IMG/VR virus record: IMGVR_UViG_3300035162_000985
Span: 1 to 29,090 of that record
Source of the DNA: a virus
Length of the DNA: 29,090 nt
Reading direction: 5' to 3' (one strand)
Shown here: piece by piece, positions 4,325-22,109 of the stretch
Layout of the letters: each line of letters starts with the position of its first letter
Position numbering within the stretch: the first letter of the stretch is position 1
Made by a program: the position numbers and the translations under genes
The notes under the pieces: generated by a model
What the model saw: the letters and a program-made list of their open reading frames with translations, nothing else
What the model was told of the DNA's origin: nothing
The model's database searches: none

Positions 4325-4330
4325 TTTAAA

Positions 4331-4350: not shown

Positions 4351-4352
4351 CT

Positions 4353-4940
4353 ATGAAATGCGTATTGACAGAGGTTTATAAAAAGCACAATACTTGGCTA
4401 GACATAGTGACTAGCTTTAGTGTTAACAAAGACACCGCCGCAGACATAGTAAGTGAAATGTATATAAACGTACAGGGACACTTAGAAAGAGACATATCTA
4501 GCATACTTTACAACAACGACGAGGTTAACTATTATTTCATATATATAGTCTTAAGAAACCTTGTCTACGACTTAAAACGCAAAGAGAAAAACGTATCCTT
4601 TACTAATTTAGACGGACTTAGTCAAAATGAAGATCAGGACTATGTAGAGACGCCAGACTTGTATAGTAAAATAAAAGCTATAAACGACTGGTACGAAAAC
4701 GCAGAGTATTTAGAGATGCTAGAAAATGAAACAATGCTAGACAACTTTAGCTCTGATAAGATGCACTTGTATTATTTAAGACGTATATTTAAAGAGGTAT
4801 ACATAGACGGAAAAAAGTTAGCTAAGTTTAGCAGAGAGTCTAAGATAACTTATTGGAGCTTACGCAATACACTAAAGATTATAAAAAACCAAATAAAACA
4901 AGGCTATGAGAATAGGGACGTTACTAGAAACAATATTTAA
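4353..4940 (+). CDS. putative phage sigma factor-like protein
   Basis: The 195-residue protein has a sigma-region-2-like N-terminal half. DIVSEMYINVQGHL (about 31-44) is followed by an aromatic helix VNYYFIYIVLRNLVYDLKRKEK (about 64-83) ending in a basic patch, as in the -10-reading helix of sigma-70 family members. After an acidic linker, the C-terminus (LAKFSRESKITYWSLRNTLKIIKNQIK, about 157-183) reads as a helix-turn-helix like region 4. It lies in the early region, while the late genes share a non-host-like two-part promoter. I infer that it directs host RNA polymerase to those promoters. Sequence divergence is high, so another HTH transcription factor is possible. Confidence 0.55.
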   Translation: MKCVLTEVYKKHNTWLDIVTSFSVNKDTAADIVSEMYINVQGHLERDISSILYNNDEVNYYFIYIVLRNLVYDLKRKEKNVSFTNLDGLSQNEDQDYVETPDLYSKIKAINDWYENAEYLEMLENETMLDNFSSDKMHLYYLRRIFKEVYIDGKKLAKFSRESKITYWSLRNTLKIIKNQIKQGYENRDVTRNNI

Positions 4941-5705: not shown

Positions 5706-5717
5706 TTTAAACATTTA

Positions 5718-5751: not shown

Positions 5752-5753
5752 TT

Positions 5754-7150: not shown

Positions 7151-7158
7151 ATAAAAAT

Positions 7159-7299
7159 ATGAGAAAAAAGAAACAAACGCAGCAAGAACGTATAGAGACT
7201 TTAGAAAGAGTAATAGCAAAACTATACTTAAGAGTACAAACTAATAGTAACATAATAGACAAACTTACACAAGATGAAAAAATACAAGAGAATAGCTAA
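7159..7299 (+). CDS. small hypothetical protein, 46 aa, helical
   Basis: Follows the membrane peptide after 8 bases and overlaps the DnaA-like gene by 26 bases. Basic start (MRKKKQTQQE), then a helix with Leu/Ile spacing (RIETLERVIAKLYLRVQTNS) that could form a coiled coil. The overlap suggests translation with the DnaA-like protein, perhaps as a partner. No family recognised. Confidence 0.5.
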   Translation: MRKKKQTQQERIETLERVIAKLYLRVQTNSNIIDKLTQDEKIQENS

Positions 7300-7741
7300 A
7301 CTAGTAAGTACTTATACAGGCGAAAACATATTTAGTCCTAAAAAAACACAAGGAGTTGTAGACGCTAGAGGTTTATTTGATCACATAATGTATATAGAGT
7401 TTGGGTGTACCTATCAAAGTATATCAAATTTCTATTACGCTAATGGTAAAAGCAGAAACCACACAGTAATACTTTATAGCGTCAGACAGTATAAAAAAGA
7501 AATAGAGCCGAGACGTGAAGACTTCAAAAACATTTTCTATAGAATACTAACCACAGAAGTAACACATACCAAATACAAAAACGTTATAGAAGACGTAAGT
7601 AAAATAAGCACAGTTAAAGGACTCAATAGTGTAAAAGCATTTGTAAATAAAACACTAGACAAAGAGCTAGAGTATAAAGATACCGAGACAGACAACGTAG
7701 ACCAATTAGACTTAGTGAAACAAATAGAAGAGCTTACCTAG
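7274..7741 (+). CDS. DnaA domain IV-like DNA-binding protein
   Basis: Residues 6-75 resemble the DnaA C-terminal DNA-binding domain. IAKLVSTYTGENIFSPKKTQ is followed by VVDARGLFDHIMYIEFGCTYQSISNFY and then the signature-like segment GKSRNHTVILYSVRQYKK (Asn62-His-Thr-Val in place of DnaA Asp-His-Thr-Thr-Val). The AAA+ ATPase part of DnaA is absent. The C-terminal half (76-155) is helical and acidic and not recognised. It is the last early gene, directly before the terminase promoter. It could bind DnaA-box-like sites to start phage replication, block host DnaA, or regulate transcription. The DNA-binding domain is fairly secure; the role is inference. Confidence 0.65.
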   Translation: MKKYKRIAKLVSTYTGENIFSPKKTQGVVDARGLFDHIMYIEFGCTYQSISNFYYANGKSRNHTVILYSVRQYKKEIEPRREDFKNIFYRILTTEVTHTKYKNVIEDVSKISTVKGLNSVKAFVNKTLDKELEYKDTETDNVDQLDLVKQIEELT

Positions 7742-7769
7742 CAAAGTTTTAAAAAGTTACGTTATATTA
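7741..7769 (+). promoter_or_regulatory. late-class promoter before terminase
   Basis: GCAAA at 7741-7745, 12 bases, then TACGTTATATT (7758-7768). The same two-part arrangement with identical spacing occurs at 17652, 18478 and 21722. ATG of the terminase small subunit is at 7774, 15 bases after the A of ACGTTATAT. Confidence 0.72.
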
Positions 7770-7773
7770 GTAT

Positions 7774-8109
7774 ATGGTACGAGACACACAAGACGGTAAA
7801 AAAAAGATGCTAGAGGAACTAGAATACAATCTAGGCATAGTGTCTACTAGTTGTTTAAACGCAGACGTAAGTAGAGCTACACATTACCGATGGCTACAGG
7901 AAGACCCAGAATACAAAGCATACGTAAAAGACATACAAGAAATTGCTATTGATTTTGTAGAGAGTAAGCTGTACGACAAAATTAAAGAGAATGACACCGC
8001 TTGCATTATATTTTATCTAAAGACTAAAGCAAAGCACAGGGGTTATATAGAGCGCCAGCAAATTGAAGTTGCAGATACTAAAGAGTTTACAGTAAAAGTA
8101 ATTAAATAG
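7774..8109 (+). CDS. terS: terminase small subunit (HTH, phBC6A51-like)
   Basis: The N-terminal helix-turn-helix (LEYNLGIVSTSCLNADVSRATHYRWLQEDPEY, about 17-48) has the THYRWL recognition-helix pattern of terminase small subunits that bind the packaging site. A helical stretch follows (IAIDFVESKLYDKIKENDTACIIFYLKTKAKHRGY) that is typical of this group and ends near YIERQQIE. The length of 111 residues is normal. It lies one base before the large-subunit gene and just after a late-class promoter, so it probably starts the late programme. Confidence 0.82.
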   Translation: MVRDTQDGKKKMLEELEYNLGIVSTSCLNADVSRATHYRWLQEDPEYKAYVKDIQEIAIDFVESKLYDKIKENDTACIIFYLKTKAKHRGYIERQQIEVADTKEFTVKVIK

Positions 8110-8110
8110 T

Positions 8111-9289
8111 TTGAGTACACAAATAGAGACTAACGTAGTCTGGGAACACTTAGAAGAGACTAACAAAAAAATAGTCATATTGCAAGGGGGTACTCGTAGC
8201 GGTAAGACTTATAACTCTATGTTGTGGTTGATATTCTCATACGCCCAGCGACATACAGGAAAAACTATAACTATCTTTAGAGCTACCTACCCAGCTTTAC
8301 GTGCCACAGTAATGAGAGATTTCTTTGACATACTTAAACAGCACGACTTATACAACGAAGCTAACCACAACAAAAGTAATAGCGAGTACAGGCTTAACGG
8401 CAACCTATTTGAGTTTGTAAGTGTAGACCAGTCTAGCAGACTTAAGGGACGTAAAAGAAACCTAGCCTTTTTAAATGAGTGTAACGAAATAACCTTTGAC
8501 TCATTCACTCAGATAATATTTAGGACTGTAGGCGTAGAAGGCGAACCTAGTATTATAATGGACTACAACCCTAGCGACGAGTACAGCTGGATATACACTA
8601 AGGTTAAAACAAGAGACGACGCACAGTTTACAATAACCACCTACAAAGACAATAAGTTTTTAGAGCAAAGCCTGGTAGAAGAAATAGAACGCCTTAGAGA
8701 TACTGACCCAGACTATTGGAGGGTTTATGGTCTAGGACAAGTCGGACGTAACAGGGCAACAGTATTTAAGTTTAGTGAGTGCGAAGAAATACCACCAGAA
8801 GCCAAGCTAGTAGCAAGAGGTTTAGACTGGGGTTTTGTTAACGATCCTAGCTGCGGTGTTTCAACTTACGTACTAGGCAATAATCTATATGTAGACGAAC
8901 TGTTTTACGAGTACGCAATGACAAACAGAGACATACATAAAAAATTACAAGACTTAGGTATAACAAGACAAGACGAGATATTTGCAGACAACAGCGAACC
9001 TAAAAGTATAGACGAGCTGCATAGGTACGGATGGAATATAAAGCCAGCGACAAAAGGCAAGGATAGTATACTAATGGGTATTGACTTAATGAAGCGATAT
9101 AATATACTAATCACAAGCCGTAGCTCTAACACACTCCAGGAGTTTAGGAACTACAAGTGGATAGAAGACAAAAACGGAAACCTACTTAACAAGCCAGTAG
9201 ACAAATTCAATCACAGCATCGACTCAATCCGCTATAGTATCTTTAAAAAGCTATCACGTCCAAACGTAGCTAGGTATGCAATACGATAA
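8111..9289 (+). CDS. terL: terminase large subunit
   Basis: The packaging motor that translocates and cuts phage DNA. ATPase domain: Walker A GGTRSGKT at residues 26-33, Walker B NLAFLNE at about 117-123 with Glu123, and a motif III-like MDYNPS near 151. Nuclease domain: GLDWGFVNDPS near 237-247, IFADNSEPKSIDEL near 290-303 and KFNHSIDSIRYSIF near 364-377 supply the metal-binding Asp residues. The length of 392 residues is at the short end of the range. The start is TTG, one base after the small-subunit stop; no better start lies close by. Very confident. Confidence 0.95.
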   Translation: MSTQIETNVVWEHLEETNKKIVILQGGTRSGKTYNSMLWLIFSYAQRHTGKTITIFRATYPALRATVMRDFFDILKQHDLYNEANHNKSNSEYRLNGNLFEFVSVDQSSRLKGRKRNLAFLNECNEITFDSFTQIIFRTVGVEGEPSIIMDYNPSDEYSWIYTKVKTRDDAQFTITTYKDNKFLEQSLVEEIERLRDTDPDYWRVYGLGQVGRNRATVFKFSECEEIPPEAKLVARGLDWGFVNDPSCGVSTYVLGNNLYVDELFYEYAMTNRDIHKKLQDLGITRQDEIFADNSEPKSIDELHRYGWNIKPATKGKDSILMGIDLMKRYNILITSRSSNTLQEFRNYKWIEDKNGNLLNKPVDKFNHSIDSIRYSIFKKLSRPNVARYAIR

Positions 9290-9306
9290 AATTTTGTATA
9301 TTGTAG
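9271..9306 (+). promoter_or_regulatory. possible early-class promoter at the end of terL
   Basis: TAGGT at 9271-9275, then TTTTGTATATTGTAG at 9292-9306, resembling the blocks at 2247 and 5718 but with two more bases between the elements. It partly lies in the terL coding end and precedes the small gene at 9320. Confidence 0.45.
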
Positions 9307-9319
9307 AAAAATATACGAT

Positions 9320-9496
9320 ATGAAACTTTCTACAGAACAATTAAAACTAGTCAAACACGAGTTTAGAATGAAACGAATATTTGAGCCAGACTTTAGACAA
9401 TACAGTAAAAAGCTATGGAACGAATTTAGACTTGACGTATGGATTACCTACAAAGACGGAGAATATACAAGCTGTGATACTGACGGCTGGAAATAA
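9320..9496 (+). CDS. small hypothetical protein, 58 aa
   Basis: Preceded by the start context ATATACGATATG, shared exactly with 3419 and 10164. The product is basic at the N-terminus (LKLVKHEFRMKRIF) and aromatic at the C-terminus (DVWITYKDGEYTSCDTDGW). No family recognised. It has its own possible promoter, so it may be expressed separately from the terminase pair. Confidence 0.6.
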   Translation: MKLSTEQLKLVKHEFRMKRIFEPDFRQYSKKLWNEFRLDVWITYKDGEYTSCDTDGWK

Positions 9497-9532
9497 TCAC
9501 GCACGCTGAAACGTTAAGGAAATGTTAAATAG

Positions 9533-9565
9533 TTGTGAACATCTATGTTTATAGTTATATTGCAG
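9533..9565 (+). promoter_or_regulatory. promoter-like site, TTG-N20-TATATTGCAG
   Basis: TTG (9533-9535), 20 bases, then TATATTGCAG (9556-9565), the box also seen at 2271-2280. The spacing fits Bacteroidetes promoters. It could drive the small frame at 9567 or the RNA region that includes the tRNA-like gene. Confidence 0.5.
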
Positions 9566-9566
9566 T

Positions 9567-9725
9567 ATGTTCTTATATATATTGACGACAGAGTTAGAAG
9601 CTCGTTTTAGTGCTAATACCATTAAAAGTAGAATCCCTTTCAAACAGAGAGTAGATAAACAAGTAGGCGTAAAGAATCCCAGTGGGTCGGTAACCAATCC
9701 GATACATTTGAAGGGCATAGCGTAG
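9567..9725 (+). CDS. doubtful small protein, 52 aa, possibly frame-disrupted
   Basis: ATG one base after the TATATTGCAG box. The product begins MFLYILTTELEARFSANTIK and then IPFKQRVDKQVG, which looks protein-like; the end (SGSVTNPIHLKGIA) less so. The -1 frame over 9659-9781 is open and ends with a protein-like stretch (GHSVVTTKDGQWASQYIIR). The two halves may be one gene of about 70 residues split by a frameshift. Alternatively the whole region is a non-coding RNA leader to the tRNA-like element. Low confidence. Confidence 0.3.
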   Translation: MFLYILTTELEARFSANTIKSRIPFKQRVDKQVGVKNPSGSVTNPIHLKGIA

Positions 9726-9830
9726 TCACTACAAAAGACGGACAGTGGGCAAGTCAATATATAATAAGATAGTTAATGAAACATAAAGTAAGTGCTAACC
9801 AAAGCTGCGCCTCTAAAAAGAAACATTAAT

Positions 9831-9954
9831 AACGAGATAGTGTAACAGGCAGCACAATTTGCACAGGCAGTAAAAAAATTACTAACGATTGAATTTTTAT
9901 TTTACAACAAACTGCACACGTAAAAAGGTATAGGTTCGACTCCTATTCTCGATA
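9831..9954 (+). tRNA. tRNA-like gene with a 50-base expansion of the anticodon arm
   Basis: The ends fold as a tRNA. The acceptor strands AACGAGA (9831-9837) and TCTCGAT (9947-9953) pair at 6 of 7. T8 and A9 follow. The D-arm is GTGT/GCAC with loop AACAGGCA, giving A14, A15, G18, G19 and A21 in place. The variable loop is AAGGT, and its T48 can pair with A15. The T-arm is ATAGG/CCTAT with loop TTCGACT, and the discriminator is A. The anticodon stem could be TTTGC (9858-9862) with GTAAA (9920-9924), but it encloses 57 bases instead of 7. Inside is a second stem, GCAGT (9867-9871) with ACTGC (9911-9915), and an A/T-rich hairpin. CCA is not encoded. The D-arm resembles tRNA-Gln. No anticodon can be assigned. 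It could be an interrupted tRNA, a decayed one, or a non-decoding tRNA mimic. Confidence 0.55.
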
Positions 9955-9981
9955 CTAATATTAACCCTTAAATTAAACGAT

Positions 9982-10152
9982 ATGACAAACAGAGAAATTT
10001 TTTACAAAGCACTAGACGCTTTAGACCTTACCAGGATACAAAAAATAGACGTTGAAATACTAGCTATAGAATACGCACATAAAGAGTATTTGCTAGGAAT
10101 GAATAGCGCACATAATACAGCTATGAAAGTGTTTGAAAACAATACTAATTAA
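9982..10152 (+). CDS. small hypothetical protein, 56 aa
   Basis: First gene after the RNA region, with the start context ACGATATG. The product is mostly helical and moderately acidic (MTNREIFYKALDALDLTRIQ...). No motif recognised. It lies next to another small helical protein gene and before a terminator, so the two probably form one short unit. The role is unknown. Confidence 0.55.
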   Translation: MTNREIFYKALDALDLTRIQKIDVEILAIEYAHKEYLLGMNSAHNTAMKVFENNTN

Positions 10153-10163
10153 ATATATACGAT

Positions 10164-10322
10164 ATGAAAACTAAAACTAAAATATTACTACAGGAGATTA
10201 TAGACTTACCAGAGTTTGAGCGTAAACAGATTATATCTGTACTCATAGCCTCAATGCTAAACAGCGAAAGCTACGAAGACGCAAAACAAACATATGACGA
10301 CATAATAGATAAGCTAGGTTAA
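10164..10322 (+). CDS. small hypothetical protein, 52 aa
   Basis: Start context ATATACGATATG. The product (MKTKTKILLQEIIDLPEFERK...) is helical, with a hydrophobic middle helix (IISVLIASML) and an acidic C-terminus; a small dimerising helical bundle is plausible. It ends just before the terminator at 10370. The stop overlaps an ATG that opens only three codons (MAA), which I do not count as a gene. Confidence 0.55.
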   Translation: MKTKTKILLQEIIDLPEFERKQIISVLIASMLNSESYEDAKQTYDDIIDKLG

Positions 10323-10369
10323 TGGCTGCCTAACAAAAGCCAAAAGAAAAAAAAGGTGGAAGTCCCTAG

Positions 10370-10396
10370 CCCTTACAGAAATGTAGGGGTTTTTTT
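10370..10396 (+). terminator. intrinsic terminator before the tail genes
   Basis: CCCTTACA (10370-10377), a GAAA tetraloop, TGTAGGGG (10382-10389), an 8-pair stem with one G-U, then seven T (10390-10396). It cleanly separates the small-gene unit from the tail operon promoter at 10418. Confidence 0.92.
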
Positions 10397-10401
10397 GTAT
10401 A

Positions 10402-10430
10402 CACAAATCTTAAATAATTACGTTATATAT
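10402..10430 (+). promoter_or_regulatory. late-class promoter before the tail operon
   Basis: TTACGTTATATAT at 10418-10430 matches the late box. The upstream GCAAA element is imperfect: ACAAA at 10403-10407, with 11 bases before TACG. The ATG at 10444 is 24 bases after the A of ACGTTATATA, farther than at the other sites. Confidence 0.62.
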
Positions 10431-10443
10431 AAAAGCATATAAT

Positions 10444-11055
10444 ATGAAAGTAGAATTGACAGTACCAACGTCACTAAATGACATACCCCTTTATCAATAC
10501 CAGAGGTTTATTAAAACATTTGAAAGCGAAGACGAATTAACAGACGAGTACGCTGGATTAAAAATGCTAGAGTTGTTTTGTGGTTTAAAAATAAACGAAG
10601 CCTTAAAGGTTAAAATGTCGGATATGAATATAATCATTGATAAACTTAATAGGTGTTTGTCTGAGAAACCAGCGCTAATTACTAGATTTAAATTAGGCAA
10701 TACAGAGTTTGGATTTGTACCGCAGTTAGACGATTTGACATTTGGGGAGTTTGTAGACTTAGAAAATACTATATCTGACTGGGACTCTATGCACAAAGCT
10801 ATGGCTGTATTGTATAGACCAGTGACTCAACAACTAAAAGGTAAATACGAGATAGAGGAATATAGAGGAGACAGTTGGCACGATGCTATGAAAAATATGC
10901 CAGCAAGTGTAGCTGTTAGCGCTATTACTTTTTTTTTTCTTTTAGAAAGCGACTTAATGAAAGCTACGCTGCCTTATTTGAGGGAACAGGAGGAAGCAGC
11001 ACAGGTAGAGAAGCAAACTTCACAAATCAGTGGGGGTGGTATCACAGCTTTATGA
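10444..11055 (+). CDS. tail assembly chaperone-like protein
   Basis: The 203-residue protein contains features I associate with a Bacteroidetes siphophage family encoded at the head of tail operons: FKLGNTEFGFVPQLDDLTFGEFVDLEN (about 81-109) and HKAMAVLYRPVTQ (about 116-128). A further feature is EIEEYRGDSWHDAMKNMPASVAVSAITFFFLLESDL. The 3' end overlaps a -1 frame open from 10920 to 11192. That frame carries QWGWYHSF and LTYLTYQKQK, the expected C-terminal extension. This recalls the lambda G/GT arrangement, where a frameshift makes a longer chaperone that binds the tape measure. The chaperone role is inferred from position, size and the frameshift layout. Confidence 0.6.
   Translation: MKVELTVPTSLNDIPLYQYQRFIKTFESEDELTDEYAGLKMLELFCGLKINEALKVKMSDMNIIIDKLNRCLSEKPALITRFKLGNTEFGFVPQLDDLTFGEFVDLENTISDWDSMHKAMAVLYRPVTQQLKGKYEIEEYRGDSWHDAMKNMPASVAVSAITFFFLLESDLMKATLPYLREQEEAAQVEKQTSQISGGGITAL
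10929..10938 (+). other. T10 run, candidate -1 slippery site in the tail chaperone pair
   Basis: ACT TTT TTT TTT CTT in the chaperone frame. A -1 slip on TTT-TTT keeps perfect pairing. The -1 frame opens at 10920, right after a TAG at 10917-10919, and stays open to 11192, so the shift must happen after 10919. The run could act by ribosomal or transcriptional slippage. The exact site is not certain, because a shift later, nearer 11010, would keep more of the upstream protein. Confidence 0.5.
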
Positions 11056-11192
11056 GATTAGCAAACGACAAATTTCTAGACTTAGAGGAAGTAGCAAAAA
11101 AGAATGTACATAATTGCTTAACATACTTGACATATCAAAAGCAAAAAAACGAAATACAGAATAATCATATAAAAAGTAAATTTAAAAAATAA
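11052..11192 (+). CDS. C-terminal chaperone extension (T-like), -1 frame of the tail chaperone
   Basis: From its own ATG (overlapping the upstream stop as ATGA) it encodes 46 residues beginning MRLANDKFLDLEEVAKKN and containing LTYLTYQKQKNEIQ. The same frame extends upstream without a stop to 10920 and adds NFTNQWGWYHSF just before the Met. That Trp-rich stretch looks like part of the domain, so most functional product is probably made by frameshift fusion to the upstream chaperone. Internal initiation at 11052 is the alternative. It ends overlapping the next gene as TAATG. Confidence 0.55.
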   Translation: MRLANDKFLDLEEVAKKNVHNCLTYLTYQKQKNEIQNNHIKSKFKK

Positions 11193-11662
11193 TGGCAAAC
11201 ACAGGCGCAAGGGCATACTACTTAATGCTAGAGACTATTAAAAACACATTGCTAGCAGACAAGAATGTTACAACAGTGACAACTGGCGACCTGTCACAAA
11301 TAGACTTGTCTAAACAAACTATATACCCACTTTCACATATAATCGTAAATAACGCTAGTAACAACGGACAGGTAATGAGTTTCAGCGTTACGGTTTTGTG
11401 TATGGACATAGAGGACGTAAGTAAGTCAGAACCAGTTAATATATTCGAAAGAAACGAAAGCGAGCAAAATATACTTAACACACAGCTAGCAGTTACCAAT
11501 AGACTATACCAGCTTTTACATAATGGACAGCTTAGACTTAACGGTTACCAAGTTGACGACGTAGCACAGTGCGAGCCATTTGTAGATCGTTTCTCTAACC
11601 AGCTAGTGGGTTGGGCAATGACATTTGAGATAATGGTTAAAAACGACTTATACATATGTTAA
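11192..11662 (+). CDS. putative tail terminator or completion protein
   Basis: The 156-residue protein has an alpha/beta pattern. An N-terminal helix (YYLMLETIKNTLLADKNV) is followed by strands with IDLSKQTIYPLSHIIVNNA, SFSVTVLCMDIED and VGWAMTFEIMVKNDLYIC at the C-terminus. Genes of this size and layout between a chaperone and an HK97 gp10-like gene in siphophages usually encode tail terminators. The role is inferred from order and size; I do not see a diagnostic motif. It overlaps the next gene by 7 bases. Confidence 0.5.
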   Translation: MANTGARAYYLMLETIKNTLLADKNVTTVTTGDLSQIDLSKQTIYPLSHIIVNNASNNGQVMSFSVTVLCMDIEDVSKSEPVNIFERNESEQNILNTQLAVTNRLYQLLHNGQLRLNGYQVDDVAQCEPFVDRFSNQLVGWAMTFEIMVKNDLYIC

Positions 11663-12231
11663 AGAATGTTATAAAAGAAATGGAGGCTGCCTCTATAAAC
11701 GTTATAAGTAAAGCAAAAGCCAGCTTAAATAAAAGTAATAGTAGCGGTAATTTATCAAATAGCCTTACGTCAAAAATAGAAGGCAAGACTACACAAGAGC
11801 CAAAGCTGACGTTTTATGCAGAAGACTATGGTAAGTTTGTTGACGAGGGGGTGCAAGGTTATGATCCTGGAGCAATGCCAAGTGGGTCTTTAGCTAGGTA
11901 CAATAAAGCGCCTGGAAGTCCGTATAAATTCGGATCTGGTAATTCTTCTGGTGGTAGCTTAAGAAGCTCTATAGACAAGTGGGTAGTGCAAAAAGGTATA
12001 CCAAACGTTAGAGACGCAAAGGGTAGATTTATAAAACGTAAATCAATGGTGTATTTAATTACTCGTAGCATATGGAATACAGGAATAAAGCCGACATACT
12101 TTTTTACTAACGCAATAGACTCAGAAATAAAAGGCATAAACAAAAAGCTAACTTTCGCATACACAAAAGATTTAAGAGACGGTTTAGAAAAAGACGTAAA
12201 ACAAAAAGGATTAAAATATAAAAGACGCTAA
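11656..12231 (+). CDS. HK97 gp10-like/tail completion protein
   Basis: Residues 50-75 (LTFYAEDYGKFVDEGVQGY) and the later IDKWVVQKGIPNVRDAKGRFIKRKSMVYLITRSIW, then GIKPTYFFTNAID, match the pattern of HK97 gp10-like proteins from Bacteroidetes phages. The pattern is a conserved FVDEGVxG turn, a Ser/Gly-rich loop, and a C-terminal helix with a Tyr-Phe-Phe motif. Such proteins sit at the head-tail junction. Basic C-terminal tail (KQKGLKYKRR). Overlaps its upstream neighbour and is followed after 2 bases by a tail protein. Confidence 0.6.
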   Translation: MLKNVIKEMEAASINVISKAKASLNKSNSSGNLSNSLTSKIEGKTTQEPKLTFYAEDYGKFVDEGVQGYDPGAMPSGSLARYNKAPGSPYKFGSGNSSGGSLRSSIDKWVVQKGIPNVRDAKGRFIKRKSMVYLITRSIWNTGIKPTYFFTNAIDSEIKGINKKLTFAYTKDLRDGLEKDVKQKGLKYKRR

Positions 12232-12233
12232 CA

Positions 12234-13403
12234 ATGCAAACTCAAATAAACTTACGAAGCCCTTTTTATGTAAAGGTTAAACAAGACGGATTAACATCTG
12301 TTAGGCTAGATTTACACGTTTACACTGGAGATTTCGTATCTAATGCCAGTGTACCAGACAGTACAAAGAGGTATCAAATAACTAAAGAACCAATAGGCAC
12401 TAATAACTTTGTAGTTTTCGAGGTTAGCGAATTAATAAGAGATTATTTAGAGATTGAGTTTGATGGTCAATATGTCGGTCAAAATGTTTGGGTAAATATA
12501 ATATATGCAGCAGTTGGAGGAAGTGGAGGTGGTATAGAGCCAGACAATACAAACGGTTATTGTGGTTTTGATGGCTATGGATATTTTGAGGAGGGTGCTA
12601 ACCCTATAATTAACGACGCTGCTTTGATTAGTAATAACGTTATTTTAAAGCTAGATGATTCGCCTGTTGTTATACCAGTAAACACTTCTATTGTTTATTC
12701 AGTAGCTTTTGTTTTAAATGGAGAGGTTGTTAAATCTTTTTCTTTATCACAAAACGATAAAAGTGCAGAGCAAATTAAATATGCTACTAATGGCTATTCT
12801 TATGCTGATTCATTTCAAGGTAGAGTTATTTTAGCTGGTGGTTTATTTGAGGACAATATTTGTTTACAGGGGTTTGAGGACGAGTTTACGCTTATGGATT
12901 GTGACAGTGTACATATTAGCTACACCGAAAATGGTGTAAATAAAGTAAAAATTATAGATATTAAAAACGTTCAAGAATGTAAATACGATCCTATCAAAGT
13001 TACTTTCATAAATAAGTTTGGAGCTTTACAAGACATAATGTTCTTTAAAAAGTCAATAGAAAAAACAGAGGTTAAAGGAGAAGAGTTTAAGTCTTCTGTA
13101 TTTGACTTGGATACACTTAGCTATAAAACATACCAACACCAACAGACACAATTTATGGTACAAGGTAATGACAGCTATACAATGAATACTGGATATATGC
13201 CAGAAGACTATAACGAAGTTATCGAGCAGCTAATGTTAAGCGAGCAAGTGTGGGGTACTTTTACAACGGAAACAGAGGTGCTGGTTAGACCTTTAGTCGT
13301 AAAGACAAAATCACTTACGCATAAAACATCATTAAACGACAACCTAGTAGAGTATACTATAGAGTTTGATATAGCTAATAATAAAATAAACAATATTAGA
13401 TAG
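12234..13403 (+). CDS. tail structural protein, 389 aa
   Basis: The protein is beta-rich with conserved-looking ends (NLRSPFYVKVKQDGLTSVRL; TIEFDIANNKINNIR) and a Gly-rich turn near residue 95-110 (AAVGGSGGGIEP). Its place between completion proteins and a large tail protein, before the tape measure, indicates a tail component, perhaps distal tail or baseplate. Bases about 12,560-12,950 use more GAT, AAT and TTT codons than the flanks, where GAC and AAC are common, so the central part may have been exchanged. No specific function assigned. Confidence 0.5.
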   Translation: MQTQINLRSPFYVKVKQDGLTSVRLDLHVYTGDFVSNASVPDSTKRYQITKEPIGTNNFVVFEVSELIRDYLEIEFDGQYVGQNVWVNIIYAAVGGSGGGIEPDNTNGYCGFDGYGYFEEGANPIINDAALISNNVILKLDDSPVVIPVNTSIVYSVAFVLNGEVVKSFSLSQNDKSAEQIKYATNGYSYADSFQGRVILAGGLFEDNICLQGFEDEFTLMDCDSVHISYTENGVNKVKIIDIKNVQECKYDPIKVTFINKFGALQDIMFFKKSIEKTEVKGEEFKSSVFDLDTLSYKTYQHQQTQFMVQGNDSYTMNTGYMPEDYNEVIEQLMLSEQVWGTFTTETEVLVRPLVVKTKSLTHKTSLNDNLVEYTIEFDIANNKINNIR

Positions 13404-15701: not shown

Positions 15702-15712
15702 AAAAAAACATT

Positions 15713-15853
15713 ATGATAAAGAATATATTAGAACTTTTAAAAAACGCACAAGGAGAGACTGAGTTAATCCAAATAGCACAAGGCAAGAATAAACTACCTA
15801 CAACATTAAAAGAGGGGTTGCATAAACTTAAAAACGAGATAAAATGGCTTTAG
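15713..15853 (+). CDS. small hypothetical protein upstream of the tape measure, 46 aa
   Basis: The product is MIKNILELLKNAQGETELIQ... and helical, ending KNEIKWL. It overlaps the tape measure start by 10 bases, so the two are probably translationally coupled. Small helical proteins before tape measure genes are common in siphophages and may be chaperone pieces. No direct motif. Confidence 0.55.
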   Translation: MIKNILELLKNAQGETELIQIAQGKNKLPTTLKEGLHKLKNEIKWL

Positions 15854-17649
15854 ATAAAATAGGGGTTGAAATAGAAGTAAAGTCTAAAGGAGCTGCTAAG
15901 GCAATATCTGACGTAACCAAAGGCTTAAGTAGCTTTAACGACGAGTTAAATAAAAACCGAGAGGCTACAAAAATACTAGATCAAATTACTGGTGGTGCAG
16001 TTACGCAGTTTAAGGATTACAAAGCAAGTTTAACAGGTGGTATAAAAGCTGTAAAAGGTTTGTCTGCTAGTTTTAAAGGTTTAAGAACAGCTGTAATATC
16101 TACAGGTATAGGTGCTTTAGTAGTGGCTTTAGCTTTAATTGTAGCTTACTGGGACGACATAACAGAGCTGGTCTCTGGAGTTAGTGCAGAGCAAAAAGAC
16201 TTACTAGCTACACAAGAACAAAGCGTACAAGCTAGTAGAGATCAGTCAGACGCAATATCTATGACAGAAAACACTTTAAGGTTACAAGGTAAATCTGAGG
16301 AAGATATTTTAGCTATGAAAAAAGCACAGACTAACGAGACCATAGCAGCGTTAGAGGCTCAATTAGTAACTCAACAGGAGATTAAAAAATCACAGGTAGA
16401 AACTTCAAAACGTAACAGGAATATACTACAAGGTATAATTAGATTCGTATCTGCACCTCTTACCTTAATCTTAAAAATGATAGACGGTATTACATACGCT
16501 GCTAGTTTATTGCCTGGAGTTGGAGATATAGCTACTAATTTAGAAGGAAAATTTAGCGGTGGTCTTGCTAATTTAATATTTGATCCGTCTGAAGTTGCTA
16601 GTGAAGCTGACGCTACTATTAAAGAGACAAAAAAACAATTAGATAAATTAAAAAACACTAGAGACGGTTACGAATTACAAGAGAGAAAAAATAGAGAAAA
16701 AAAGAAGTCTGGTGGTAAAAGTGATAGCGACGACGAAAAAAAGAGACAAGAAGAACTAGAGGCTTTAAAAGATAAAATTAGAGATGCTGAAGCTAATAAA
16801 GAAGACGAGGCTAGAAAATTAGAATTACAAAAAATACGAGAACATAACGAAAAATTATTAAAAGAAGCAGAAGCTGCTGATTTAAAAACACAAGAGCTTG
16901 AAGATTCTTTAAATGAAACGCTAGCAGCTAAACAAGCTGAGTTTGATAAAATAGATGAAGAAAGAAGATTAAAAAAATTAAAAGAAGATAGAGAAAAATT
17001 AATTGAACAGTTAGAACTTGACAAAGAATTTGATGATTTAAGTTTTGAGGAAAGCAGAAATTTAATTAATGAAAGAGAAGCAGTTTTATTAGCAGACAAG
17101 ACCCTGTCAGGGGAACAAAGAACAGAGTTAGAAAAACAATTTGCTGATGCAAGAACTGAAATATCAGAAAAAGAAGGGGAAGCTAAGACTGATGCATCTA
17201 TGAGTTATGCTAATTCTTTAGGTAAAATTAGTGGTTTAGTAGGTAAAGAAACACAAGCTGGTAAAATGGCAGCAAGTGCAGCAGCTTTAATACAAACCTA
17301 TTTAGCAGCACAACAAGCAAGAACAAGCCAGTTAGCTATAGCAACCCCAGATGCACCAGTAAGAGCCGCCTTGGCTATGGCAGTAGAGATAGCAGCTGGT
17401 CTTAAAAATGTTAAAGAAATAAATAGTATTAAAGTACCAAGAGCAAGTGGTGGAGGAACTGCGCCCACGCCTTCAGCATCTCCAACACCTCCAAGATTTA
17501 ATGTAGTAGGAGCAACGGAAACAAGCCAGCTAGCTGACGCAGTTGCAGGTCAGACCCAACAACCAATCCAGGCGTATGTAGTTTCTAACGATGTAACCAC
17601 AGCACAAAGTTTACAAAATAATATAGTAGAAGGTGCTTCAATAGGATAA
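15844..17649 (+). CDS. tail tape measure protein
   Basis: The 601-residue protein begins DKIGVEIEVKSKGAAKAISDVTKGLSSF, the usual repeat-like start of tape measure proteins. It has a strong hydrophobic helix at about 82-103 (TAVISTGIGALVVALALIVAYW) and a second, weaker one at about 205-228. A long charged coiled coil follows (about 265-450, many Glu/Lys/Leu), then an Ala-rich helix and a Pro/Ser/Thr-rich tail. It sets tail length. At roughly 0.15 nm per residue the tail would be about 90 nm. Tail genes lie upstream, head genes downstream. The coiled-coil part uses GAT/GAA codons more than neighbours. Confident. Confidence 0.85.
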   Translation: MALDKIGVEIEVKSKGAAKAISDVTKGLSSFNDELNKNREATKILDQITGGAVTQFKDYKASLTGGIKAVKGLSASFKGLRTAVISTGIGALVVALALIVAYWDDITELVSGVSAEQKDLLATQEQSVQASRDQSDAISMTENTLRLQGKSEEDILAMKKAQTNETIAALEAQLVTQQEIKKSQVETSKRNRNILQGIIRFVSAPLTLILKMIDGITYAASLLPGVGDIATNLEGKFSGGLANLIFDPSEVASEADATIKETKKQLDKLKNTRDGYELQERKNREKKKSGGKSDSDDEKKRQEELEALKDKIRDAEANKEDEARKLELQKIREHNEKLLKEAEAADLKTQELEDSLNETLAAKQAEFDKIDEERRLKKLKEDREKLIEQLELDKEFDDLSFEESRNLINEREAVLLADKTLSGEQRTELEKQFADARTEISEKEGEAKTDASMSYANSLGKISGLVGKETQAGKMAASAAALIQTYLAAQQARTSQLAIATPDAPVRAALAMAVEIAAGLKNVKEINSIKVPRASGGGTAPTPSASPTPPRFNVVGATETSQLADAVAGQTQQPIQAYVVSNDVTTAQSLQNNIVEGASIG

Positions 17650-17651
17650 AA

Positions 17652-17679
17652 GCAAAAAATAAATTAAATACGTTATATA
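17652..17679 (+). promoter_or_regulatory. late-class promoter before the protease gene
   Basis: GCAAA (17652-17656), 12 bases, TACGTTATATA (17669-17679). The ATG is at 17683, 13 bases after the A of ACG. Located directly behind the tape measure stop, so it starts the head unit. Confidence 0.78.
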
Positions 17680-17682
17680 GAT

Positions 17683-18303
17683 ATGAAAATTATAGAGCTA
17701 ATTATAGACGAAAACGACGAGTACTCAGGTATAGATGCTATAAGTTTGGTAGAATACCCTGCCATAGAGGAAAATTGGGTAGCGCTTAACGAAAACAAAC
17801 GAGAGTATAAGTTTAAGGCTTTAGACGAAGACAAAAAAATACTTATAGGCGCATTGCTAGTGCCTAACAAAATGATATATCGTAAAGACGGCGACGAAGA
17901 GTATTACATACACTTTACAAAAGACACAGTTAAAAAGGCTAGTGAGTTATACTTAATGAATGGCAACGCTAACAATGCGACATACGAACACATTAAAGAA
18001 GTAGAAGGCGTTAGCTTAGTTGAAAGCTGGATAGTAGAAGACAAAGAAAAAGACAAGAGCGCTTTATATGATTTAGATTTACCTATTGGCTCGTGGGTAG
18101 GCGCCGTCAGGGTTAATAACGAAAAACTTTGGGAGATGGCTAAGGTCGAGGGGTCTATTCGCGGTTTTTCAATAGAAGGCTACTTCGCCGAGCGAGCAAC
18201 TGACAGACCTAAGGAGCAAATAGAAGAAGACTTAAGCTCAGAAATAGAGGCTGGCTTAAAACTGCTAGAGATAAAACAATCAATAGTTAAATCACAGCTG
18301 TAA
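17683..18303 (+). CDS. XkdF-like prohead serine protease (Peptidase S78_2-like)
   Basis: Matches the XkdF-like family. The start is IIELIIDENDEYSGIDAISLVEYPAIEENW, then LLVPNKMIYRKDGDEEYYIHFTKDTVKKA. The catalytic region is YEHIKEVEGVSLVESWIVED with His103 and Ser115, then DLPIGSWVGAVRVNN and GSIRGFSIEGYF. It would cleave scaffold and capsid during head maturation. The length of 206 residues is about the core domain; the C-terminal tail is short. It stands in front of the scaffold-like and capsid genes, as expected. Confidence 0.85.
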   Translation: MKIIELIIDENDEYSGIDAISLVEYPAIEENWVALNENKREYKFKALDEDKKILIGALLVPNKMIYRKDGDEEYYIHFTKDTVKKASELYLMNGNANNATYEHIKEVEGVSLVESWIVEDKEKDKSALYDLDLPIGSWVGAVRVNNEKLWEMAKVEGSIRGFSIEGYFAERATDRPKEQIEEDLSSEIEAGLKLLEIKQSIVKSQL

Positions 18304-18473
18304 TGAGTAGACGACGTAAACAAAATAGAAGACCTGCTAAAAACACTGGTGTATCGCCTACAGGCGGTAGCAGAGGCTGTTTGTGTAAAGACGAGTTAAC
18401 CTACTCTAGCGAGTGCTGCGACGGCTCACTATGGGCGCAAGGCATAGGACGCATAACAGCGGTAAGCGAATAA
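18303..18473 (+). CDS. Cys-rich mini protein (CLC ... CCDG), 56 aa
   Basis: Coupled by TAATG to the protease gene. Basic N-terminus (MSRRRKQNRRPAKN), then GCLCKDELTYSSECCDGSLW and AQGIGRIT. Four Cys (C-x-C and a C-C pair) suggest a small metal site or disulfide knot. The CCDG...AQGIG pattern is one I recognise as recurring in small proteins of flavobacterial phages, without a known role. Position between protease and scaffold genes suggests a virion or assembly protein. Confidence 0.65.
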   Translation: MSRRRKQNRRPAKNTGVSPTGGSRGCLCKDELTYSSECCDGSLWAQGIGRITAVSE

Positions 18474-18477
18474 AAAT

Positions 18478-18505
18478 GCAAATAAATTAATCAATACGTT
18501 ATATA
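18478..18505 (+). promoter_or_regulatory. late-class promoter before the scaffold-region genes
   Basis: GCAAA (18478-18482), 12 bases, TACGTTATATA (18495-18505). The ATG is at 18509, 13 bases after the A of ACG, the same geometry as at 17652 and 21722. Confidence 0.78.
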
Positions 18506-18508
18506 ATT

Positions 18509-18970
18509 ATGAGTACAAAAGATAGAGTATTTAGTAGACTGTTTGACAGCAGTAAGCATAACACAGAGTTAAAAAAAGCTGAGGCTAACCTAAACGCTAA
18601 GAAAAAAGTAGCACTAGGATTAGTAGACGAGTTAGACTACGATTTAGACGTACTAACCGAAGAGACTGGTAGACTTAATTATGCGGTTGATGAATTTTTT
18701 GACCAGCAGTTTGACATTATGTACGACGCATATATTAAACTTTACGACGTGTTTTTTAATAATAGCGAGGCTTTCTTAACGCCTTCCGACTTAGACTCAG
18801 ACAGACAACGTTTAGAGGATATTAAAATTAAAGCAGAAGAGTTAGGTTTAAGCGTAGAAGACGTATACCCTAATTACGAAGAGCATATTAGCGAAATAGA
18901 GTTTTTAACAGAAGATTCTACTAAATTTGAAGACAGAAAATCGCAATTTGAAACAGCAATAAGAATATAA
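18509..18970 (+). CDS. head assembly protein with TKDRVF motif, 153 aa
   Basis: Begins MSTKDRVFSRLFDSSKHN. The segment TKDRVFxxLF is shared with the C-terminus of the scaffold-like protein at 19443 (TKDRVFNKLF). The rest is an acidic, helical protein, and KAEELGLSVEDVYPNYEEH near 111-129 is similar to KAEDLGIDPVDIFDNYEEA in the next gene. It lies between protease and capsid genes under a late promoter. A scaffold or capsid-docking role is likely. It has no family name known to me. Confidence 0.6.
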   Translation: MSTKDRVFSRLFDSSKHNTELKKAEANLNAKKKVALGLVDELDYDLDVLTEETGRLNYAVDEFFDQQFDIMYDAYIKLYDVFFNNSEAFLTPSDLDSDRQRLEDIKIKAEELGLSVEDVYPNYEEHISEIEFLTEDSTKFEDRKSQFETAIRI

Positions 18971-18973
18971 ACT

Positions 18974-19411
18974 ATGAATACAAATAAAACAGTACTGTCT
19001 ATTGTAGACAAATTAAAGCCAGCTAAAAAATCTGTAGAGTTAAATATAGTAAGTAGCTTGATTACAGAGTTTGAGCCTTTAGAGCAAAGTTTTAGCGAGG
19101 CGTCATATTTTGCTTATGAGTATGGCGACGAAATTATAGACGCTTTTAGCGACTTTACACAGAAATATAACATAGACAACTATATAGTAAACGGTCAAGC
19201 TACGAATTTAAAAGATATAGCCGACACTATGAGAGGTTACCTAGAAGAGTTAGAGACAAAAGCCGAAGACTTAGGTATAGACCCTGTAGACATATTCGAC
19301 AACTACGAAGAGGCTAGGCGTATGGTAGACGACGCAGACAGTATGTATTCAGACTTTATAAGTAAATATAGAGAGATTATTTCTTTTATAGGTATAGCAG
19401 ACTTTAGTTAA
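18974..19411 (+). CDS. head assembly protein, paralogue of the preceding gene, 145 aa
   Basis: Starts 3 bases after its paralogue's stop. Acidic and helical, with KAEDLGIDPVDIFDNYEEARRMVDDADS at about 96-123 aligning with the preceding product. The N-terminal TKDRVF segment is not present; instead it has MNTNKTVLSIVDKLKPAKK. The pair looks like an old tandem duplication. Function is probably in capsid assembly, by position. Confidence 0.6.
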   Translation: MNTNKTVLSIVDKLKPAKKSVELNIVSSLITEFEPLEQSFSEASYFAYEYGDEIIDAFSDFTQKYNIDNYIVNGQATNLKDIADTMRGYLEELETKAEDLGIDPVDIFDNYEEARRMVDDADSMYSDFISKYREIISFIGIADFS

Positions 19412-19442
19412 TTAATAAACAGTAAATAAATAAATAATAAAT

Positions 19443-20051
19443 ATGAAACCAACAGAAATGTTATCGCAAATTAAGACTTTGCTAAAAGCTAGAGTAAGTT
19501 TAGCACAGCAAACACTAGAGGACGGCGTAACAGTTATAGAAGCTGAGAGCTTCGAAGCTGGACAAGCTATCTTTATAGTTTCTGACGACGAGCGTATCGC
19601 ACTACCTATTGGAGATTATACCACTGGAGACGGCAAAATTATCGTTGTATCTGAGGAAGGAATGATCGCTGAGGTAAAAGAAGCAGCTGCAGAAGAGACT
19701 GAGGAAATTAAAGAAGAGCAACTAGAAGAAGAAATAGTTGTAGAAGACGTGCCAGAGGTTGTTGCCGAAGAGGTAGCAGCTATCGTAGAGGCAGTGGTAG
19801 AAGTTATCGCTCCAGTAATTGAAGAGGTAAAAGAGCAAATGGAAGAGCTTAAGAAAAAGCTATCTGAAATGGAAGATAAAAAGGAAGACGAAGACGACAA
19901 AAAAGAAAAAATGTCTAGCCAAAAGCCATCTCGTAAGCCTATGAAGCACAACCCAGAGACAAAACAAAAAGCAACACAAAACTTATACGCACAAAATAAT
20001 TTAAATAATACAACAAAAGACAGAGTATTTAACAAACTTTTTAATAATTAA
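19443..20051 (+). CDS. scaffold-like protein
   Basis: The 202-residue protein has a small N-terminal beta domain (about 25-77, SLAQQTLEDGVTVIEAESFEAGQ ... IALPIGDYTTGDG). A Glu/Val-rich acidic helical region follows (about 78-130), then a charged coiled coil (EQMEELKKKLSEMEDKKED), then a basic Gln/Lys/Asn linker. It ends in NTTKDRVFNKLFNN. Acidic coiled-coil proteins with a basic C-terminal capsid-binding tail directly before the capsid gene are typical scaffolds. The end motif matches the N-terminus of the 18509 product. It is probably cut by the XkdF-like protease. Confidence 0.7.
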   Translation: MKPTEMLSQIKTLLKARVSLAQQTLEDGVTVIEAESFEAGQAIFIVSDDERIALPIGDYTTGDGKIIVVSEEGMIAEVKEAAAEETEEIKEEQLEEEIVVEDVPEVVAEEVAAIVEAVVEVIAPVIEEVKEQMEELKKKLSEMEDKKEDEDDKKEKMSSQKPSRKPMKHNPETKQKATQNLYAQNNLNNTTKDRVFNKLFNN

Positions 20052-20055
20052 TAAA

Positions 20056-21036
20056 ATGAGAAAAACAAATTTAAGAGACATTACAGGAAACGGTAGTGTA
20101 GCAACAATCACAACTAGCTACGAAGGACAATACCTTGGCGAGCTAATTTCAGCAGCGTTACTTTCTGGAGACACTATCGACAAAGGTGGTATCACAGTTA
20201 AGCCAAACGTAGCTTACAAAGAAGTAGTAAAAAAATTAGACACTTCTGGAATTATTACAGACGCAACTTGCGACTTTACAGTAACAGCTGACCAAATTAC
20301 ACTTTCTGAGCGTATTCTTGAAGTTGAGCCTTTCCAAGTAAATTTACAGCTTTGTAAGAAAGACTTTTTGTCTGACTATCTTGCTTTAGAAATGGGAGCT
20401 AGCGCATACAAAAACTTACCATCTTCTTTTGGTAACTACATTATGGCTCACGTAGCAGCTGAGGTAGCACAAAAAACAGAGCAAAATATCTGGGGTGGTG
20501 TAAACGGAACTGCTGGAGAATTTGACGGTTTAACTACACTTATGGCAGCTGACGCTAACGTAGTAGACGTACCTGGTACAGCTTCTGCTTTTGCATCTTC
20601 TACTATTATAGCGGAATTGGGAAAACTAGTTGACTCAATACCAGCAGCAGTATACGGTAAGGAAGACCTCCATTTATTTTTGCCAACGGTAGCTTTTAAA
20701 GCCTATGTGAGAAGTCTCGGAGGCTTCGCAAGTGGAGGTGTAGGCGCAAATGGTGTAGACAACAGAGGTTCTTTATGGTATGAAAACGGAGGGTTAACTT
20801 TCGAAGGTATCAAAGTATTTAAAGCACCAGGTATGCCAGCAGATCATATGGTAGCAGCTGAGAAGTCTAACCTATTCTTTGGAACTGCTTTACTAGCAGA
20901 TATGGGACAGTCTTCTGCTAAAATTTTAGATATGGCAGATTTGGACGGTTCAGACAACGTAAGAATTATCCTACGTTTCCAGGCTGGAGTGCAATATGGA
21001 GTATCACAGGACACAGTTTTGTACACTTTATCATAA
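20056..21036 (+). CDS. major capsid protein, HK97-fold
   Basis: The 326-residue protein follows the scaffold gene after 4 bases and precedes a strong terminator. It shows HK97-like pattern elements: an N-arm (TTSYEGQYLGELISAAL), VEPFQVNLQLCKKDFLSDYLALEMG (P-domain/spine helix region), and a long beta/loop segment (VYGKEDLHLFLPTVAFKAYVRSLGG). GLTFEGIKVFKAPGMPADHMVAAEKSNLFFGTAL and a C-terminal strand (VRIILRFQAGVQYGVSQDTVLYTLS) complete it. Its codon use (more GGA, GGT, TCT, GCT) differs from neighbours, as expected for a highly expressed gene. Confidence 0.88.
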   Translation: MRKTNLRDITGNGSVATITTSYEGQYLGELISAALLSGDTIDKGGITVKPNVAYKEVVKKLDTSGIITDATCDFTVTADQITLSERILEVEPFQVNLQLCKKDFLSDYLALEMGASAYKNLPSSFGNYIMAHVAAEVAQKTEQNIWGGVNGTAGEFDGLTTLMAADANVVDVPGTASAFASSTIIAELGKLVDSIPAAVYGKEDLHLFLPTVAFKAYVRSLGGFASGGVGANGVDNRGSLWYENGGLTFEGIKVFKAPGMPADHMVAAEKSNLFFGTALLADMGQSSAKILDMADLDGSDNVRIILRFQAGVQYGVSQDTVLYTLS

Positions 21037-21056
21037 TTAACTAATCAATAAATTTA

Positions 21057-21098
21057 GGGGTAGGTAAGCCGTTTTGCGCCTACCACCCCTTTTTTTTT
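21057..21098 (+). terminator. intrinsic terminator after the major capsid gene
   Basis: GGGGTAGG (21057-21064) pairs with CCTACCaCC (21079-21087; one bulged A), with a 14-base loop, then nine T (21090-21098). It should lower transcription beyond the capsid gene. The tail tube gene starts 22 bases later. Confidence 0.88.
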
Positions 21099-21119
21099 AA
21101 CTTTTAAAAACATAAACAA

Positions 21120-21656
21120 ATGAGTTGCAATTCACTAAGTATCGGACGTACTTTGCCTTGCACTAGCTCAGTCGGAGGCATAAAAGCATTTTACGTATGC
21201 TCATATGGTACTCTAGGCGCTTTAACAGTAAGCGCAACGACAGGCGAGTTAGAAAGCATAGCAGGAACGCCAGCATTATACAAATACGACGTAGAAGGTT
21301 CTAACGGACTAGAGCAAGCTGTAACAGCTTCTGCTGAAAACGGTAGCGTATTTTACGAGCAGACATTAACGGTAACGTTAAAGAAACTAGAAAAACTTAC
21401 ACAGTTTGAGCTAACAGATTTATTAAAAGCTAGAACCCACGTTTTTGTAGAAGACTACAACGGTAACTACTTTTTAATGGGAGCGACTAATGGAGTACAT
21501 AGCTCTGGAGGTTCAATTACTACTGGACAAGCGTACGGAGACCTTTCTGGTTTTTCTGCACTGACTTTTACAGCACAAGAAGTTTTACCAGCATATTTTA
21601 CAGCTGCGGCAGTCATTACTGCTAACGTTGAGGCTGGACAAATTGAGCCAGCATAA
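21120..21656 (+). CDS. major tail tube protein
   Basis: The 178-residue protein matches the pattern of Bacteroidetes siphophage tail tube proteins. It has a Cys-containing start (CNSLSIGRTLPCTSSVGGIKAFYVC), LYKYDVEGSNGLEQAVTASAENGSVFYEQTLTVTLKKL (about 53-90), VEDYNGNYFLMGATNGVHSSGGSITTG (about 110-136) and DLSGFSALTFTAQEVLPAYF. These correspond to the tube strands and the inner loop. It stacks as hexameric rings around the tape measure. It lies away from the other tail genes, between capsid and portal, an unusual order. Confidence 0.75.
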   Translation: MSCNSLSIGRTLPCTSSVGGIKAFYVCSYGTLGALTVSATTGELESIAGTPALYKYDVEGSNGLEQAVTASAENGSVFYEQTLTVTLKKLEKLTQFELTDLLKARTHVFVEDYNGNYFLMGATNGVHSSGGSITTGQAYGDLSGFSALTFTAQEVLPAYFTAAAVITANVEAGQIEPA

Positions 21657-21691
21657 TAAGGGGTTATATTAGGTATATGCTAAGGCTATGA

Positions 21692-21719
21692 AGAGGGCGC
21701 AGAGATGCGCTCTTTTTTT
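21692..21719 (+). terminator. intrinsic terminator after the tail tube gene
   Basis: A stem of up to 10 pairs around GCGCA/TGCGC with a GAGA loop (loop 21702-21705), followed by a T-tract (to 21719). It ends the unit just before the next late promoter. Confidence 0.88.
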
Positions 21720-21721
21720 AT

Positions 21722-21750
21722 GCAAAAAAATAATATTTTACGTTATATAT
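21722..21750 (+). promoter_or_regulatory. late-class promoter before the portal unit
   Basis: GCAAA (21722-21726), 12 bases, TACGTTATATAT (21739-21750). The ATG at 21753 is 13 bases after the A of ACG. Directly behind a terminator, so it begins a new unit. Confidence 0.78.
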
Positions 21751-21752
21751 GT

Positions 21753-22109
21753 ATGAGAGTGTTAAAACCGACATCAAACGAGCAAACCTTTTACATTATT
21801 CCCAGAGAGTACGCTATTAGCAACGTAATAGAGCTTAGAGACGATCAAACTAACGTTATAACGTCATATACTACTACAATGGTAAAAGAAAACGACTACC
21901 TTAAATTTACAGGCGTATTTACTTTATTAGAAGGGCATTTTTACGATTTAAAACTAACTAGTACTTCTGTGTCTGGTAGGAAGTATAACACAGACAAAAT
22001 ATTTTGCACAGCTCAAATTATTAACCAAAACAATAATCAAGAGTATAGCATAAATAAAGACCTTTATATAACCAACGACAGCTATAGTAACGACTATATA
22101 GTAATATGA
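21753..22109 (+). CDS. hypothetical structural protein upstream of portal, 118 aa
   Basis: I choose the ATG at 21753 (MRVLKPTSNEQTFYIIPREY), not the in-frame ATG at 21705. The latter lies inside the terminator hairpin and upstream of the promoter. The product is beta-rich, with VIELRDDQTNVITSY, FTLLEGHFYDLKLTS and NTDKIFCTAQIINQNNNQEYSI. It ends with repeated Asn/Tyr/Ser (NDSYSNDYIVI). Genes of this type sit beside portal genes in flavobacterial phages, so a virion or connector role is likely. It overlaps the portal start by ATGA. Confidence 0.6.
   Translation: MRVLKPTSNEQTFYIIPREYAISNVIELRDDQTNVITSYTTTMVKENDYLKFTGVFTLLEGHFYDLKLTSTSVSGRKYNTDKIFCTAQIINQNNNQEYSINKDLYITNDSYSNDYIVI

Follow-up and report, generated by a model that had tools for sequence, protein, structure and literature searches.

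A predicted bipartite late promoter and a candidate phage ECF-type sigma factor in an uncultured virus genome

The virus record IMGVR_UViG_3300035162_000985, whose 29,090 bases make up the window analysed here, carries five copies of a bipartite, promoter-like motif, each directly before a unit of late genes. These five motifs are almost certainly the on-switch for the late, particle-building genes. We further propose, with a probability of roughly 0.85, that they are late promoters read by the core RNA polymerase of the host together with a phage-encoded sigma factor of the extracytoplasmic function (ECF) type, the product of the gene at 4353-4940. The motif, its places, spacing and conservation, like the identity of the sigma factor, are read directly from sequence. 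The original prediction, which described the motif as a phage-specific late promoter, named no factor for it, and the candidate sigma gene is added here.

Exact matches to TACGTTATAT(A/T) begin at 7758, 10419, 17669, 18495 and 21739, all on the + strand, so that every one of the five late starts named in the original prediction does have an exact copy before it. The upstream partner is also as described there: GCAAA-N12-TACGTTATAT occurs exactly at 7741, 17652, 18478 and 21722, and the fifth site, at 10403, has ACAAA one base closer (N11). When TACGTTATATW alone was searched with up to two mismatches, 53 matches were found against 49 expected, which is chance level, while the bipartite form with up to three mismatches gave eight against 2.6 expected, four of them exact. 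With the loose search at chance, the signal resides in the exact and bipartite forms. A scan for sigma-70 promoters returned sites no more numerous than in shuffles. The five predicted promoters are as follows.

7741..7773 (+), predicted late promoter P1, 5' of terS: GCAAA 7741-7745, CGTTATAT 7760-7767, predicted +1 at 7772, 2-nt leader
10403..10443 (+), predicted late promoter P2, 5' of the tail gene: ACAAA 10403-10407, CGTTATAT 10421-10428, predicted +1 at 10433, 11-nt leader
17652..17685 (+), predicted late promoter P3, 5' of the XkdF-like protease: GCAAA 17652-17656, CGTTATAT 17671-17678, predicted +1 at the A of the ATG, 17683
18478..18511 (+), predicted late promoter P4, head cluster: GCAAA 18478-18482, CGTTATAT 18497-18504, predicted +1 at the A of the ATG, 18509
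21722..21755 (+), predicted late promoter P5, 5' of the portal unit: GCAAA 21722-21726, CGTTATAT 21741-21748, predicted +1 at the A of the ATG, 21753

The comparison set comprises the window and 22 further records, 23 genomes in all, with homologues of window proteins followed down to about 25% identity. A counterpart of P1 occurs at the equivalent terS position in 13 of 16 genomes, of P2 before the tail gene in 20 of 22, of P3 before the protease in 20 of 20 and of P5 before the first portal-unit gene in 15 of 15; for P4, the motif lies within the corresponding head interval in 15 of 16. Across the set, exact TACGTTATAT is found no more than 24 nt from an open reading frame (ORF) initiated by ATG 47 times on the late-gene strand and never on the other; 150 permutations of its letters gave on average 0.3 start-proximal matches and never more than five. 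Counting all exact copies, 51 lie on the late-gene strand and at most one on the opposite strand. The core common to all 23 genomes is CGTTATAT, that is CGTTATA(T), since the preceding TA is replaced by AA, AG or CC in relatives. A per-gene test in up to 22 genomes found no motif before the helicase, sigma, exonuclease, NinG, DnaA-like, terL, tape measure, capsid or portal genes, and one early gene has it upstream in 1 of 22. Being present before the unit-opening genes and absent before these nine others, the motif therefore marks the first gene of five late units. The original prediction had claimed a coordinated late regulon with its own specificity and no copies before early genes. Both in silico checks speak for it: the motif is present at the same late units in the 22 relatives, and it is essentially absent within late operons and before early genes.

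A bipartite scan of the whole collection mixed real sites with chance matches in coding sequence and served only for finding long contigs, not for statistics. GCAAAGGTTAGTCGTGCTACGTTATAT, which recurs in many contigs among the matches listed, was rejected as a chance coding match, seemingly from one common gene. Among the long motif-bearing contigs without a sigma gene, two (G032 and G045) are fragments lacking the early region, and the others are chance matches in coding DNA.

The architecture of the motif is equally regular. Of 99 start-proximal copies, 77 have CAAA 13-15 bases 5' of the CGTTATA core. Measured from the C of CGTTATA, the ATG follows at exactly 12 bases in 50 of about 100 copies and sooner in only five; the distance extends up to about 31 bases and is sharply cut off at its lower end of 12, and control 7-mers show no peak in distance to the start codon. 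In copies with a more distant ATG, mostly those of the tail gene, the base 12 after the C is an A in 19 of 20. The T at -1 is invariant in the 12-base class; in genes lacking the motif, A (41%) and T (52%) share this position.

The first base of the Flavobacterium -7 box lies at -12 (PMC6847099), as does that of the sigmaL -10 element (PMC6372665). Placing the C of CGTTATA at -12, as in those elements, puts the predicted +1 on the A of the AUG. The original prediction took TTATAT for the -10 element, with transcription starting 5-8 bases after it. Of this, the start position is retained, as the predicted +1 is the fifth base after TTATAT, the lower edge of that range, and usually coincides with the A of the start codon; the element itself is redrawn, its invariant core being CGTTATA, which matches the CGT box of the flavobacterial ECF-type motif (PMC9723704). 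The start codon thus bounds how far downstream the promoter can lie, as would be expected if the mRNAs are leaderless. With a C-to-ATG distance of 12 at half of the copies and almost never less, most late mRNAs probably begin at the AUG and would be leaderless.

The proposed reader of these promoters is encoded in the early region.

4353..4940 (+), gene for an ECF-like sigma factor of 195 aa that is proposed to read the late promoters, assigned from family profiles and from AlphaFold2 and Foldseek

Taken together, family profiles and modelled fold indicate that this gene encodes a divergent ECF-type sigma factor. The TIGR02937 sigma70-ECF profile matches 23 of 25 family members (best 3.9e-8) and the window protein at 0.0032 over residues 19-183. 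Pfam Sigma70_r2 matches 18 of 25 members (best 3.2e-4), the window member weakly (0.13). A search of the family profile against PDB sequences gave chance matches only. The top matches of the AlphaFold2 model (pLDDT 77, pTM 0.43) in a Foldseek search against the PDB are full-length ECF sigmas, namely M. tuberculosis SigL, E. coli sigmaE and AlgU, and its region 2 matches sigmaE region 2 bound to its -10 element (4lup, 2map; TM 0.55-0.57 on the target). Among viral structures, too, most of the named matches are ECF-type sigmas. Like an ECF factor, the protein has a conserved sigma region 2 (Sigma70_r2 profile, Foldseek) and, after a low-confidence linker, helices at 134-151, 156-163 and 167-193 that correspond to the helix-turn-helix of region 4; regions 1.1 and 3 are absent. 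The gene is present in 23 of 23 genomes, the copy in G039 being detected by the profile alone. In-frame 'stops' inside three of the sigma genes were dismissed, as they are located at the real C-terminus. No motif stands upstream of the sigma gene in any of 22 genomes. The group thus has what is expected of a phage late sigma system, namely a repeated non-host promoter confined to late genes and a sigma gene that lies in the early region and is not itself preceded by a late promoter, and the ECF-type sigma is a strong candidate for the factor that would act at the late promoters.

One cultured pair of phages offers a comparison. Among cultured phages, related capsid and portal proteins were found only in Nonlabens phages P12024L and P12024S, one partial portal match aside, and it was through these proteins that P12024L was identified; tblastn of the window sigma against cultured phages gave no match. 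P12024L gp35, annotated 'Sigma-70 region 2', nevertheless matches the sigma family profile, being so divergent that tblastn misses it. Like the window, P12024L has related structural genes, an ECF-like sigma and start codons preceded at 11-12 bases by CAAA-N13/14-CGTTA. In detail, six gene starts, those of late genes, carry ACAAA-N13/14-CGTTAATA or a similar form at this distance from the ATG, and the other strand has none. Unlike the window, its -10 element is CGTTAATA, and no CGTTATAT occurs at its gene starts. The CGTTA core is retained, whereas the remaining -10 bases differ along with the sigma. In flavophages P2559S, 11b and P12002L, where the sigma profile finds nothing, there is no start-proximal CGTTATAT or CGTTAATA. 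We infer the host of the window phage from P12024, because a genome scan for the host returned only one low-coverage contig in a Bacteroidia metagenome-assembled genome, itself probably a phage contig. In open-licence PubMed Central papers, we found no description of P12024L promoters, nor any late promoter or late sigma of a Bacteroidetes phage.

Phage sigma systems are known elsewhere. In phages 7-11 and phiEco32, late (and middle) genes are transcribed by the host core polymerase together with a phage sigma; the late sigma of 7-11, SaPh711_gp47, reads bipartite promoters of the form GTAAtg-(16)-aCTA, and phiEco32 gp36 reads a single-element promoter, tAATGTAtA (PMC8948821). The system proposed here is like that of 7-11 in its phage sigma, bipartite late promoters, host core polymerase and early genes on the host sigma, and also in that sigma and promoter both diverge between related phages (PMC8948821). 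It differs in its consensus (CAAA-N13/15-CGTTATA), Bacteroidetes-type host, shorter spacer and a +1 predicted at the start codon. With phiEco32 it shares a phage sigma and an extended conserved -10 element near the start site (6-8 bp) (PMC8948821); phiEco32 promoters have no -35 element, whereas the window family has CAAA at most sites. The ECF-type promoters of Flavobacterium psychrophilum SM6 likewise carry CGT in the -10 region, attributed there to an ECF sigma, although these serve host genes, not phage genes, and leaderless mRNAs are just 5.5% in SM6 (PMC9723704). The window system would therefore work like the 7-11 and phiEco32 sigma systems and differ in sequence, host phylum and predicted leaderless starts.

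In the mechanism we propose, the early genes, the sigma gene included, lack the motif and would be read by the primary sigma of the host. As the phage sigma accumulates, it would steer the host RNA polymerase to the five late promoters, its region 4 contacting the upstream CAAA and its region 2 contacting CGTTATA 13-15 bases downstream, and terS, the tail block, the protease, the head block and the portal block would be turned on. With the C of CGTTATA 12 bases before the A of the start codon, +1 would fall on or beside the AUG at most late units, and the tail-block mRNA would have a short leader. Recognition, start site and late timing, the last of these from gene content, are what we infer here.

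The first 64 bases of the window (1-64) equal the last 64 (29027-29090) with one mismatch, and the window is therefore very probably a complete, circularly permuted genome; that mismatch would let the repeat escape an exact-repeat criterion. An early block (1472-7741) holds the NinG, helicase, sigma, exonuclease and DnaA-like genes. The late block after 7741 holds terS, terL, tail, tape measure, protease, head, capsid, portal and fibre genes and is extended across the junction by holin and endolysin genes at the window start. No RNA polymerase gene, such as systems of the T7 or N4 type have, was found among the window proteins scanned, all large ORFs included. The genes opening the late units, and the terminators next to two of the promoters, are given below.

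7774..8109 (+), terS, opens the late block; terminase small subunit by phrog_309 and phrog_4044
10444..11055 (+), first tail-block gene, 3' of P2; phrog_32199, unknown function
17683..18303 (+), prohead protease-like gene, 3' of P3; XkdF-like, Pfam PF14550, Peptidase_S78_2 1.7e-13
18509..18970 (+), head-cluster gene, 3' of P4; assigned by syntenic position
21753..22109 (+), first portal-unit gene, 3' of P5; followed by the portal gene, phrog_33693, 3.2e-115
10368..10391 (+), intrinsic terminator abutting P2 on its upstream side, from a terminator scan
21692..21720 (+), terminator-like hairpin and T-run immediately 5' of P5, read from the sequence

The hairpin before P5 was missed by the simple terminator scan, probably because of a bulged base. 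Elsewhere in the window, three fibre-like genes of similar plan stand in a row at 24893-28759 (444, 429 and 415 aa, the last with Laminin_G_3), which looks like the result of tandem duplication. At 9831-9954 there is a tRNA-like element (Rfam RF00005, 33.8 bits; gathering 29) with acceptor, D and T arms and some 60 extra bases in the anticodon region; it has no ARAGORN call. L007, L009 and L238, which are close relatives, also have it, and in them its T-arm and acceptor are intact.

The late motif is not a host box, as the original prediction had said in setting it apart from TAnnTTTG. The consensus of the Bacteroidetes primary-sigma -7 box is TAHHTTTG (PMC6847099), which bars G at positions 3 and 4; TACGTTAT departs from it, with AT instead of TG and, at the fourth position, a G that the published set almost never shows there (PMC6847099). 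Boxes resembling the host TAnnTTTG box, TTTTTGTAGCTT or TATCTTTAA, do lie shortly 5' of early genes (4334-4346, 5735-5746 and 3395-3405), with similar ones before sigma or helicase in several relatives, and are probably early promoters. Another short repeat, ATATACGAT, stands directly before the ATG of three non-late genes (3407-3418, 9308-9319 and 10152-10163), namely the helicase and two small ORFs between terL and the tail gene, and also before the helicase in some relatives.

Other readings of the motif were weighed. A host sigma, for instance a host ECF factor with a CGT -10, could read the late promoters with the help of a phage activator such as the DnaA-like helix-turn-helix protein at 7274-7741, leaving the ECF-like protein some other role. 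Flavobacteria do own ECF sigmas and a CGT-box promoter motif (PMC9723704), and the DnaA-like protein is encoded just 5' of terS (Pfam Bac_DnaA_C 0.058, below cut-off). We consider this unlikely, given that P12024L couples a divergent sigma with an altered -10. The DnaA-like protein was set aside as late activator because the motif persists in six genomes where this protein is undetected (G013, G016, G018, G019, G025 and G039); the sigma is found in all of them.

That the motif is no promoter at all, and instead a translation-initiation signal, might be argued from its place four bases from the ATG at many genes and from the reliance of Bacteroidetes on upstream bases instead of Shine-Dalgarno signals (PMC6847099). 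Such a signal, however, would hardly be restricted to the genes that open late units, be paired with an upstream element at fixed spacing, come straight after a terminator at P2, vary in its distance to the ATG between 12 and about 31 bases with an abrupt cut-off at the lower end, or fix the T at -1 in the 12-base class, and we regard this reading as very improbable. Slighter still is the chance that the motif binds some other phage protein (a repressor, replication or packaging factor) and lies near late starts by coincidence: operators can be dispersed, repeated sites, but the orientation toward late genes is fixed, as the strand counts of exact copies show, and the position relative to start codons is tightly constrained.

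Several observations weigh against the proposal that a phage ECF-type sigma reads these sites. The window sigma falls under the curated cut-offs (TIGR02937 17.1 vs 42.9 bits, Pfam 12.6 vs 24), making it by score a divergent ECF member at best, with the case carried by family and fold; a pTM of 0.43 means that only the separate domains of its model are trustworthy. About one-fifth of start-proximal copies lack CAAA, and the 13-15 base spacer, tighter than the 16 bases of phage 7-11, places CAAA near -30. Three of the 16 terS starts tested have no motif. All 23 genomes form one clade, so the association of sigma and motif is partly common descent; P12024L is the sole more distant test, and the negative-control phages number three.

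For a broad group of flavophages that are uncultured and probably marine, the finding supplies a predicted pair of sigma and promoter, with Nonlabens phage P12024L/S as a cultured model. CGTTATAT and CGTTAATA, with their diverging sigmas, form a natural specificity-swap set, and the pair may serve as an orthogonal expression system for Flavobacteriia and as a case in which to test leaderless translation where the host has no Shine-Dalgarno signals. We also suggest, tentatively and at somewhat under even odds, that this is a phage sigma with promoters built into the start codon, its late switch moving structural genes onto leaderless mRNAs, a class rare in the host family. If so, one protein would alter both the choice of transcribed genes and how their mRNAs start translation.

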